42,371 nt of DNA from contig JAUNJF010000018.1 of NCBI GenBank assembly GCA_030533405.1, positions 1 through 42,371 of the forward strand. Reading direction: 5' to 3'. Position 1 is the stretch's first letter, and every line of letters starts with the position of its first letter. This DNA is from Eubacteriales bacterium. GTDB lineage: Bacteria; Bacillota; Clostridia; Lachnospirales; Lachnospiraceae. Under the pieces are notes generated by a model. That model did no database searches. It was not told the DNA's origin and saw nothing but the letters and a program-made list of their open reading frames with translations. Both the position numbers and the translations under genes were made by a program. Below are positions 29,512-33,846 of this stretch, one piece after another.

Positions 29512-30246
29512 TTATTCGTTGTCTTTCTTTAATGCTTTCCGAAATTCCTGCATAACATCATAATCAATTTCCCATAGTTCTCCAGCTTCATGCTCACCTA
29601 GCGTGATATTCATAACACGTATTCTTTTCAGCTTTGTTACACGATATCCAAACACCTCACACATTCTGCGGATCTGTCGATTCATTCCCTGCGTCAATAT
29701 GATTGAAAAACACCGTTCACTTATCTTTTTCACTTTACATGGATTCGTCTTTCTTTCACATTCCTTGTTTTTATCATAAATAAGTACACCCTCTGACATA
29801 CCTTTTACAAAATTAGCATCTACCGTTTTATTCACCCATACAATATATTCTTTTTCGTGTTGATTTCTTGCCTTTGCTACTTTATTACACAAATCTCCAT
29901 CATTTGTAAGCAATAGCAATCCCTCTGAATCTTTATCCAATCTTCCAACATACTTTAACTCATGCGGAATATCAAAATGACGATAAATACTACTACTGTC
30001 TCCCCTGTGTGCTGTACAGGCATATCCCTTTGGTTTATAAAATGCCACCATCTTTTTTTCACAAACTGGTTTTATCATCGTTCCATTCACCATGACAACA
30101 TCGGCATCACTAACTTTCATGCCATTTTCTGCCACCACACCATTGACCGTAACTTTTCCTTCTAAAATCCATTCATCCGCACGTCTTCTGGAACAAAATC
30201 CAGAATTACTAATATATTTATTTAATCGAATTAACTCCTGATTCAT
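29512..30246 (-). CDS. rluF: RluF/RluB-family 23S rRNA pseudouridine synthase
   Basis: Converts a uridine of 23S rRNA (family targets near U2604/2605) to pseudouridine. 244 residues from MNQELIRLNKYIS at 30246, with GGAG 7 bases upstream; the frame is open for 24 codons more but without a ribosome binding site. The S4 RNA-binding domain covers residues 5-60 (FCSRRRADEWI). The catalytic aspartate is D104 in GRLDKDSEGLLLLT. The C-terminal motif QGMNRQIRRMCEVFGYRVTK fits the RluB/E/F group and MNRQIRRM is nearest RluF. First gene of the operon with ligA and metA. Confidence 0.9.
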   Translation of the reverse strand: MNQELIRLNKYISNSGFCSRRRADEWILEGKVTVNGVVAENGMKVSDADVVMVNGTMIKPVCEKKMVAFYKPKGYACTAHRGDSSSIYRHFDIPHELKYVGRLDKDSEGLLLLTNDGDLCNKVAKARNQHEKEYIVWVNKTVDANFVKGMSEGVLIYDKNKECERKTNPCKVKKISERCFSIILTQGMNRQIRRMCEVFGYRVTKLKRIRVMNITLGEHEAGELWEIDYDVMQEFRKALKKDNE

Positions 30247-30289
30247 ATTACATCTCCACCTGTTATTATATCCTAAAATAATTTCATTT

Positions 30290-30318
30290 ATCATATCATG
30301 ATACTTCATACATTTCAA
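30290..30318 (-). promoter_or_regulatory. promoter of rluF-ligA-metA
   Basis: TTGAAA (30313-30318 on the minus strand), 17 bp, TATGAT (30290-30295), 44 bp upstream of the rluF start. Confidence 0.6.
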
Positions 30319-31040: not shown

Positions 31041-31880
31041 TTATTCATTACTTTGTTCATCCGCGTCTTCTGGTGTAATTTGCTCCTCTTCAGATTCTGT
31101 CATGTTATCAGCACCTGACTGCGTTTGCACATCTCTTCTACTAATAATGTCATAAAAATCACGAAGTGTCTGATCTTTTTCTTTTAATTCTTCATTTTTA
31201 TCCTCTACAGATTTGTAAACTTTCTGAATATCAGCATCACCTTTAATTTTTACAATATAGTCCTGCACTTCTTGTGAAAGAGTTCCGTTATTCACCAAAT
31301 AGCCTCTGGAACCATTTACAACACATAATGTCATAATATCATATGGAGAGGAATTCACGCCCGTAATTGTCACATTTGCAACAACAAATACAATATAACT
31401 TCCCTCATCTAATCCTTCTTTTGTGTATACCGTAATATTATCATATGCTGTGATAAATTCTGCTTTTCGTTTCAAATCCTCATCATCTTTATATGGTGCC
31501 GGATTTGTTACCATATCCTGCAATCTCAAATTATCACAACTTGTAATCGCACTAAAATACTTCTGTATAAATGCATTTAATTCTTCATCAGCATCTTTTT
31601 CATAAGGAATAATGGTGTCATGTTCTTCATTCACATTTACCTTCTCATCCAAAACCGCCTCTTTTTTTTCCTGTGGAACCTCTTTTTTAGGTTTTTGTTG
31701 TGTAGGTATTCCAACAAATATATATGTTAAAACACAACACAATACAAAAAGACTCCATCCAAACACAAGTTTTAATTTGGGACTAATCGAAATCGTATCA
31801 TTCCCCTTCCCAATTTGGGAATCCTTAAAATGAAATTGTTCATACGAATCTGACAGTCGATCAAATGTATTCTTTTTCAT
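31041..31880 (-). CDS. hypothetical membrane-anchored protein with extracellular domain
   Basis: 279 residues from MKKNTFDRLSDSYEQFH at 31880 (GGAG 6 bases upstream). A cytoplasmic N-terminus of about 37 residues precedes one membrane helix (about 38-57, LVFGWSLFVLCCVLTYIFV). A Lys/Glu-rich linker follows (about 60-90). The predicted external domain (about 95-215: DEELNAFIQKYFSAITSCDNL, then YIVFVVANVTITG) recalls NTF2/SnoaL-like folds by its helix-then-strands pattern, but this is a guess. A coiled segment (about 215-245) and an acidic C-terminus end the protein. No family is recognised with confidence. It has its own promoter and terminator. Confidence 0.8.
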   Translation of the reverse strand: MKKNTFDRLSDSYEQFHFKDSQIGKGNDTISISPKLKLVFGWSLFVLCCVLTYIFVGIPTQQKPKKEVPQEKKEAVLDEKVNVNEEHDTIIPYEKDADEELNAFIQKYFSAITSCDNLRLQDMVTNPAPYKDDEDLKRKAEFITAYDNITVYTKEGLDEGSYIVFVVANVTITGVNSSPYDIMTLCVVNGSRGYLVNNGTLSQEVQDYIVKIKGDADIQKVYKSVEDKNEELKEKDQTLRDFYDIISRRDVQTQSGADNMTESEEEQITPEDADEQSNE

Positions 31881-31944
31881 GATGTTCTCCATTCTATTTA
31901 TCTATCAAATCAATTTTTATACTCTCATAATGTCATACTGATTT

Positions 31945-32019: not shown

Positions 32020-32091
32020 GCACCAGTAGCTCAGTGGATAGAGCAATGGCCTCCGGAGCCATGTGCGGAGGTTCGATTCCTCTCTGGTGCA
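32020..32091 (+). tRNA. tRNA-Arg (anticodon CCG)
   Basis: Full cloverleaf: acceptor GCACCAG/CTGGTGC (32020-32026 with 32084-32090), D stem GCTC/GAGC, anticodon stem ATGGC/GCCAT with loop CTCCGGA and anticodon CCG at 32053-32055, a four-base variable loop, and T stem GGAGG/CCTCT with loop TTCGATT. The discriminator is A32091. CCA is not encoded. It reads the rare codon CGG. Its 3' end is six bases from the stop codon of the convergent amidase gene, with no obvious terminator. Confidence 0.96.
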
Positions 32092-32958: not shown

Positions 32959-33390
32959 ATGCGTTATATTATATATTGCAATCAAAAAAACATTTCAGAC
33001 AATCACCAACAAGCTATTCTTGAATTCAAAAAACGTCTATCAGCCTATTGCGAGACAGATTTGATTCTTTCTTCTACATTACACTTAGATAAAAATATAT
33101 CAAAAAGCAATCATCAAATACTCTTTGTCTCAAATGGTCCATCCAAATTTTCATCAGAAGAATTTGCTTCCTATATTCATAATATTCAACTAACAGGTAA
33201 ATCAAATTTGCATATCTTGATTGGTTATGATTTAACAGATTTATACACAAATACGCCATCCGATTTGCTACCTCCAGACAGTTTATCCATAACCAAATTT
33301 GATCTTTCTCACGAAACCGTTACTCTATTATTTTATGAACAACTATACAGAGCCTATACGATTTTACAAGGCAAGACCTATCACAAATAG
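32959..33390 (+). CDS. RlmH-family SPOUT protein lacking the SAM-binding loop
   Basis: 143 residues. Homology to RlmH (23S rRNA pseudouridine-1915 N3-methyltransferase) is seen along the whole chain: FKKRLSAYCETDLI near the N-terminus (family YxKRLSRYCKLEII), FSSEEFASYI...LTGKSNLHILIG in the middle, and the C-terminal tail FYEQLYRAYTILQGKTYHK (family LLEQIYRAFKIxxGEPYHK). The glycine loop IGGSLG that holds SAM is replaced by IGYDLT (88-93), and the SKMTFPHQLMR segment by TKFDLSHETVT. It therefore probably cannot bind SAM but keeps the tail known to be catalytic. AGGAG lies 7 bases upstream of the ATG. Its stop is 3 bp from that of the convergent RlmH gene. Confidence 0.85.
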   Translation: MRYIIYCNQKNISDNHQQAILEFKKRLSAYCETDLILSSTLHLDKNISKSNHQILFVSNGPSKFSSEEFASYIHNIQLTGKSNLHILIGYDLTDLYTNTPSDLLPPDSLSITKFDLSHETVTLLFYEQLYRAYTILQGKTYHK

Positions 33391-33393
33391 TGT

Positions 33394-33846
33394 CTACGAA
33401 ACGGCGTCTATTTCTTCGCACAATACCACCCGCATCAATTGATGTGGAAATGTCATTTTTGAAAAACTTATTTTTTTGTTTGCTCTTTCTTTTAATCGTT
33501 CATCCAATCCCAAAGAACCTCCAATCAAATAAACAACCCGATTATATCCATCATACCTTGCATTCTCAATCAACTGTTTGTGTTGTTTTGTTGTAATTTC
33601 TTTCCCCTCAATACATAACGCAATCACATAGTCCCTTCCATTTATTTGATCTGCGATTTTCTTTCCTTCCTTTTCAAGAATAGTACACTTCTCTTTTTCA
33701 CTTAAATGATTTGGAATCTTTTCATCAGGAAATTCCATAATGTTTATCTGATTTTGTTTTTTTGTAATTTGTTTACAACAAGTTTCAATTTGTTTTCTGT
33801 AATAGGAATCTTTAATTTTACCAACGCATAATATCAAATACTGCAT
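33394..33846 (-). CDS. rlmH: RlmH-family methyltransferase lacking the conserved C-terminal tail
   Basis: 150 residues. Clear RlmH: MQYLILCVGKIKDSYY at the start, RDYVIALCIEGKEITT in the middle, the SAM-binding trefoil knot motif VVYLIGGSLGLDERL (IGGSLG at 108-113) and ISFSKMTFPHQLMRVVL (126-142). The family normally continues EQIYRAxxIxxGxPYHK, but here the protein ends EEIDAVS right after the knot. No other frame downstream encodes the missing tail, so this is not a simple frameshift. The missing tail is present in the convergent plus-strand paralogue. GAGGAAG precedes the ATG. If this is the only copy in the genome, activity would need a tail donated by another protein. Confidence 0.9.
   Translation of the reverse strand: MQYLILCVGKIKDSYYRKQIETCCKQITKKQNQINIMEFPDEKIPNHLSEKEKCTILEKEGKKIADQINGRDYVIALCIEGKEITTKQHKQLIENARYDGYNRVVYLIGGSLGLDERLKERANKKISFSKMTFPHQLMRVVLCEEIDAVS

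Follow-up and report, generated by a model that had tools for sequence, protein, structure and literature searches.

Two open reading frames that converge at positions 32959–33846 of a 42,371-nucleotide stretch of Lachnospiraceae DNA, which we refer to as the window, both fall within the RlmH family, and the question they raise is whether two incomplete proteins could together form one rRNA methyltransferase. RlmH (also YbeA or OrfX; PF02590, COG1576) is the homodimeric 23S rRNA pseudouridine-1915 N3-methyltransferase. It is encoded by one gene and forms a homodimer with two SAM sites, whereas the pair described here comprises two genes with one SAM pocket and one tail. RlmH is reported to be one of the smallest SPOUT enzymes and to occur in most bacteria, as a nearly universal protein (PMC4119055).

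Two RlmH paralogues at one locus

The two genes, which we call A and B (table 1), are encoded tail to tail with 3 bp between their stop codons, an arrangement noted in a first-pass annotation of this DNA and confirmed by the coordinates. That annotation had described the minus-strand copy as carrying IGGSLG and SKMTFPHQLMR and lacking the C-terminal tail, in agreement with both the sequence and a PF02590 alignment that covers positions 1–141 of 154 (129.7 bits); the A protein carries SKMTFPHQLMR and terminates with ...EEIDAVS ahead of the YR...YHK region. The plus-strand copy, described as tail-bearing with IGYDLT where the SAM loop would be, indeed aligns with the whole profile (positions 1–154) at a weak score of 62.3 bits. 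Both proteins exceed the curated PF02590 cut-off of 27 bits and neither reaches the NCBIfam RlmH equivalog cut-off, the best model (NF000985) scoring 162.3 bits for A and 58.9 bits for B against 172 bits. Given that family models place both genes under RlmH, annotation may overlook that either one alone would be only half of the enzyme. The first-pass reading left no place for a complete RlmH elsewhere in the genome, and a PF02590 search of its 94 contigs (95.8% complete) found no third RlmH beyond A and B.

Table 1. Features of the window at and near the A/B gene pair (residue numbers follow E. coli RlmH)
Feature	Position	Strand	Description
tRNA-Arg(CCG)	32020..32091	+	surroundings of the pair, no part of the enzyme
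Subunit B gene	32959..33390	+	143 aa; RlmH paralogue, catalytic/RNA tail present, SAM pocket ablated
B K25-R26	33031..33036	+	RNA-facing pair; in 30/30 B vs 11/30 and 3/30 A
B IGYDLT, at the SAM-loop position	33220..33237	+	second G (104) and G107 in 0/30 B
B catalytic tail EQLYRAYTILQGKTYHK	33337..33387	+	E138, R142, Y152, H153 and K154, each in 30/30 B
Subunit A gene	33394..33846	-	150 aa; RlmH paralogue, SAM pocket intact, without catalytic tail
A reading-frame end, DAVS + stop	33394..33408	-	RlmH would continue here with Y141-R142...YHK
A FPHQLMR	33430..33450	-	E. coli 127-133; P128, H129, M132 and R133 in 30/30 A
A SAM loop IGGSLG	33508..33525	-	E. coli 102-107 region; I102, G103, G104 and G107 in 30/30 A

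The tRNA-Arg(CCG) gene beside the pair recurs in 14 of 21 split-rlmH loci examined (L001, L003, L004, L005, L010, L016, L017, L018, L023, L071, L075, L076, L081, and L089) vs none of 34 single-copy rlmH loci. A minus-strand gene at 31041–31892, flanked by an Lrp/AsnC regulator and this tRNA, encodes a protein of 283 aa that matches no Pfam family. About 2.6 kb from the pair, also on the minus strand, lies a gene for an S4-containing pseudouridine synthase (29512–30318; PseudoU_synth_2 and S4), presumably of the RsuA/RluB type, which is at most a candidate for the enzyme that makes pseudouridine 1915.

Division of conserved residues between A and B

In the E. coli RlmH dimer the SAM pocket has been assigned to one protomer and E138, R142, Y152, H153, and R154, together with the RNA-facing R25 and R26, to the other; the mutants Y152F, H153F, R154A, and the two at E138 remained dimeric and had no activity (Koh et al. 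2017; PMC5430550). The site occupied by K25-R26 in B is thus RNA-facing and on the protomer that gives the tail (PMC5430550). We aligned 61 single-copy RlmH proteins with 30 A and 30 B proteins from Lachnospiraceae pairs of nine genera. At 12 positions of the SAM side, A matches the single-copy residue in 351 of 360 cases (97%) and B in 58 of 360 (16%); at seven positions of the partner side, A matches in 49 of 210 (23%, 30 of these being E138) and B in 210 of 210 (100%). The glycine-rich SAM pocket is found in A only, with G103, G104, and G107 in 30 of 30 A proteins and in 27, 0, and 0 of 30 B proteins, and the essential C-terminal Y152, H153, and R/K154 are found in B only (30 of 30 each), a YHK end occurring in none of the 30 A proteins. 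The "degraded knot segment" that the first-pass annotation had ascribed to B is apparent at the sequence level, G104, G107, and R133 being present in none of the 30 B proteins and H129 in three.

When all pairs are considered, the YHK end is absent from the 39 A proteins read and present in 40 of 40 B proteins read, and in none of the 39 pairs does either A or B hold both active-site halves in one polypeptide. Given that the complementary pattern recurs in 30 pairs from nine Lachnospiraceae genera and in nine pairs outside the family, it is not a product of chance. The residues kept by each protein follow the protomer roles of the E. coli structure (PMC5430550) and support the earlier reading of the pair as two roles split into two proteins.

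Among 42 columns near-invariant in single RlmH, the cut-offs used assign 14 to A only, seven to B only, two to both, and 19 to an intermediate class; twelve columns are invariant among the 30 B proteins. B is also shortened by about 20 residues between R26 and L72, an interval of 28–37 residues in all 24 B proteins examined that has a median of 50 or 51 in single-copy and A proteins (range in single-copy proteins 38 to 55). In E. coli this interval includes K42 and R43, both assigned to the SAM-binding protomer (PMC5430550). Neither this shortening nor the retention of K25-R26 in B had figured in the first-pass argument. Interface positions 122 and 127 are hydrophobic in all 30 A and all 30 B proteins; position 74 is hydrophobic in only four of 30 B proteins and position 125 in 21 of 30. 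One B protein (G507_B; L254/L269) has a lysine at the catalytic E138, a residue found in the other 39 B proteins examined.

We posit, with a probability of roughly 0.85, that A and B form a putative obligate heterodimeric RlmH with one active site that methylates pseudouridine 1915 of 23S rRNA. This reading rests on residue complementarity, co-occurrence, a genome search that gave no third copy, purifying selection, and the predicted monomer folds, from which we infer dimer formation, the inactivity of each protein alone, the substrate, and the order of events. A would bind SAM in its deep pocket, and B, predicted to be unable to bind SAM, would lay its C-terminal tail (E138-R142-Y152-H153-K154) across that pocket. 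K25-R26 and K154 of B would grip helix 69 (H69) of 23S rRNA, B thereby contributing the base, the tail, and half of the RNA grip, and the single composite A/B site would methylate N3 of pseudouridine 1915. The second SAM site of the ordinary homodimer seems to do almost nothing, its KD2 being about 1 mM for OrfX (taken as quoted in PMC5430550); given such a site, each copy could after duplication lose one half until neither works alone. A first search pattern for H69 matched in none of the 26 genomes of the genus, and a second, allowing up to three mismatches, matched in six of 21, including a single split genome. Among 14 split genomes searched, that 23S stretch was found in G227 alone, where H69 is intact; the other 13, including that of the window, gave no 23S match.

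E138 is retained in 30 of 30 A proteins though it is assigned to the opposite protomer, and A may therefore use it structurally or retain some activity. This retention and the nearly whole SAM side of A speak for a reading that we consider quite unlikely, in which A has become active by itself, as a homodimer that needs no tail and draws its base from a different residue, while B serves some other purpose, such as that of a regulator or RNA binder; B also evolves faster than A (mean p-distance 0.61 vs 0.52), and one genome (G528) has a cut-back RlmH with no B match. However, changes at each of Y152, H153, and R154 abolished the activity of E. coli RlmH (PMC5430550), the YHK end lost from A is kept in every B protein read, for which a mere regulator would have no need, and tail-less A is accompanied by tail-bearing B in 39 pairs, tails of single-copy proteins having been seen only among the matches listed.

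Distribution, gene arrangement, and descent

Within the genus of the window, 22 of 26 genomes contain exactly two PF02590 matches, one strong and lacking the profile end and one weak and tail-bearing, and the remaining four contain no match; an assembly gap is likely in one of these (G004) given that it is very close in AlaRS to the pair-bearing G003. In a sample of 250 Lachnospiraceae genomes from 249 genera, 12 have two matches, 228 one, and 10 none. True pairs are present in 10 of the 250 (that of the window, G010, G056, G081, G114, G136, G163, G179, G227, and G240), and the pair occurs in eight Lachnospiraceae genera besides that of the window; two further candidates (G103 and G236) were rejected as contig-edge fragments. 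A very diverged single-copy RlmH (L069 in G248; IAGSLG, FTHLMTR) has an intact YHK tail, and no B was found with it.

A sweep of the class covered 293 genomes, 20 of them, including that of the window, with two or more matches; we followed 17 of the 20, leaving out G392 and G492, and added G344, G401, G412, G516, and G528. Nine of the 17 contain A/B pairs, which represent eight families of Clostridia outside Lachnospiraceae (G297, G333, G343, G365, G394, G460, G469, G507, and G555). The others were rejected as pairs: G362, G389, G456, and G493 have small C-terminal pieces beside a full copy (the G493 piece below the cut-off), G373, G393, and G477 have second matches that do not reach the cut-off, and G384 has one gene in two frames. 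This G384 gene (G384:C29:97868-98342; L253) is the only RlmH found in its genome and is interrupted, with tail and body in different frames. The decayed C-terminal piece in G389 (G389:C10:7347-7542) contains stops, lies about 2.5 kb from the full-length RlmH, and is perhaps a lost B. As to the added genomes, the only copy in G412 is a B at the edge of a contig, G516 has one diverged RlmH gene, and G344 and G401 have matches below the cut-off only; the single RlmH of G528 (G528:C16:744-1109; L255) ends at profile position 118, away from the contig end, with no second match, and represents a shortened RlmH unaccompanied by B, perhaps a gene that has been broken. A sweep of 219 genomes across the phylum, read as match counts only, gave more than one match in the genome of the window, G588, G617, G632, and G745.

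In total we read 39 pairs (30 and nine) in 39 genomes, and a PF02590 search of these genomes found no full-length RlmH with a YHK tail; in the family, class, and phylum sweeps, tails of single-copy proteins are known only among the matches listed. High-completeness genomes with no PF02590 match at the E-values used number 10 of 250 in Lachnospiraceae, 28 of 293 in Clostridia, and 30 of 219 phylum-wide.

The first-pass annotation had asked whether close relatives have the same pair; the pair itself holds across relatives and extends beyond Lachnospiraceae, but the convergent layout is one of several. In the genus of the window, A and B are convergent in 22 of 22 genomes, from 133 bp apart to an overlap of 10 bp; the overlap is exactly 10 bp in nine genomes (L016, L023, L017, L005, L020, L013, L012, L019, and L076) and sets the A stop codon antisense to the Tyr-His codons of the B catalytic end. 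Elsewhere in Lachnospiraceae the genes are convergent and adjacent (G056, G081, and G114), convergent and 2.5 kb apart (G136), codirectional and 0.2–4.2 kb apart (G179, G227, and G240), or on different contigs (G163, as also in G365 outside the family). In four of the nine genomes outside Lachnospiraceae (G333, G507, G394, and G460), A lies directly upstream of B on the same strand, in an operon-like layout, from 141 bp apart to a 23-bp overlap (23 bp in G394, 4 bp in G460); A and B are convergent in G555 and 14–46 kb apart in G297, G343, and G469. Given that layouts vary while the pair and its residue division persist, the 3-bp tail-to-tail layout is not essential.

Our phylogenetic analyses place the Lachnospiraceae A proteins in one clade of the RlmH tree (99/99) and the B proteins in another (100/100). 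The AlaRS tree alone scatters the split genera (four changes), which by itself would suggest several origins or transfer. A tree of AlaRS and RpoB from 30 genomes, picked after the AlaRS tree was known, includes 12 split genomes (four of the 22 of the genus and eight from other genera), and all 12 fall within one clade of 14 (100/100). G026 and G176, with one full-length RlmH each, lie inside this clade, and strict monophyly of the 12 is rejected for this reason (p-AU 4e-107). In the RlmH tree these two genes do not group with A, that of G176 grouping with G031 (99/87) and that of G026 being weakly placed. The simplest reading is one origin in the split clade with the pair later replaced by a whole gene in G026 and G176, retention being possible; under replacement or retention, the pair and single RlmH appear exchangeable.

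For the origin of B we analysed 24 B proteins, 14 of the 30 from Lachnospiraceae and 10 others. All 24 lie on one side of a 91/99 branch, for which the bootstrap has not settled, and all share the shortening of about 20 residues; B is also cohesive once the tail columns and the longest genomes are removed (21 B, SH-aLRT 99). An independent duplication giving rise to B in Lachnospiraceae is not rejected (p-AU 0.10, with long branches involved), and a single origin of B across Clostridia is not proven. Two A proteins (G343_A and G469_A) keep E138 and Y141-R142, end immediately ahead of YHK, and are accompanied by a B whose SAM loop is dead; on their sequences they look like an early stage or intermediate of the split; G365_A still has R142. 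We give an even chance to the view that split RlmH is widespread in Clostridia, perhaps repeatedly evolved, with living lineages preserving a series from homodimer to split and a probable return. The series would run from the full-length homodimer to an A lacking YHK only beside a SAM-dead B (G343 and G469), then to an A cut further that still has R142 (G365) and an A cut before R142, and would end in the probable return to one full-length gene inside the split clade (G026 and G176). B would in this series be a SPOUT protein with an RNA-binding and catalytic-tail role only, its knot region degraded and possibly unknotted.

The occurrence of G026 and G176 inside the split clade suggests equivalence of pair and single gene, and it bears on a second alternative, namely that the A/B heterodimer has come to act on a different nucleotide or RNA. 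Its RNA surface is altered, given that B has lost the K42-R43 stretch and A has largely lost K25-R26, but each dimer would still have one set of the RNA-facing K25-R26 and K154, and a search of the genome of the window found no further RlmH to do the old job. We therefore consider a change of substrate very unlikely.

Selection, predicted structures, and significance

All 30 A genes and all 30 B genes, from nine genera, have open reading frames. For A, dN/dS is 0.08 and 0.12 in the two of nine comparisons with finite dS, and for B it is 0.11–0.21 in the four of nine with finite dS, the other comparisons being saturated. Both A and B are under purifying selection, and the signs of decay that would have spoken against the first-pass reading are not seen in these 30 pairs. 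The A and B distance matrices of the genus are correlated (Mantel r 0.73, with none of 2000 permutations as high), common descent contributing part of this. That one or both copies are decaying pseudogenes has very little to recommend it: B is much diverged and A is without an end essential in E. coli, but open frames, dN/dS well below 1 where dS is finite, and the columns invariant in 30 B proteins contradict decay. Nor can an assembly or annotation artefact (frameshift or chimera) be seriously entertained, for although many of the genomes are drafts in many contigs, the pair is present in 39 genomes, including the one-contig, 99% complete G460.

AlphaFold gave confident models of A and B, with mean pLDDT values of 93.3 and 91.6. 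The RlmH fold is clear in the A model, which matches RlmH crystal structures in Foldseek with TM scores up to 0.94 (1vh0) and rmsd of 1.0–1.9 Å. It is present with deviation in the B model, for which all 15 hits with E ≤ 0.001 are RlmH chains, at TM scores of 0.70–0.79 and rmsd of 4.5–6.9 Å. The modelled deviation would fit the degraded knot segment of B, and given this deviation the putative heterodimer may differ in geometry from the E. coli dimer.

The pair shares with RlmH its family and the predicted fold of A, and the SAM-pocket and tail residues of RlmH are present once per A/B pair. We found no description of a split RlmH pair in the open-licence PMC literature, a body of text that leaves most subscription papers and bioRxiv preprints outside. 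The nearest parallel is animal mitochondrial SerRS2-alpha/SLIMP, which unlike A/B is an animal tRNA synthetase and no methyltransferase (PMC10570016). METTL3-METTL14, DNMT3A-DNMT3L, and the PRMT7 pseudodimer combine a working methyltransferase with a paralogue or domain that is inactive, having lost SAM binding or catalytic residues; they have other folds, and the accessible part of the source describes no reciprocal loss of catalytic parts (PMC10908127). Yeast Upa1-Upa2 is a SPOUT paralogue pair with a link to the large ribosomal subunit, which the authors of that study assume forms a heterodimer; these are other SPOUT proteins, derived from the yeast genome duplication, and complementary active-site loss is not described in the accessible part of that paper (PMC8994135).

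If A and B form the heterodimer that we propose, a natural two-gene division of a composite site would reveal which residues each protomer really contributes and would support the one-active-site model of RlmH. The pair would be a bacterial case of the evolution of a homodimer into an obligate heterodimer, with apparent intermediates, and the series of living lineages, if true, would make the one-site working of the RlmH homodimer directly testable.
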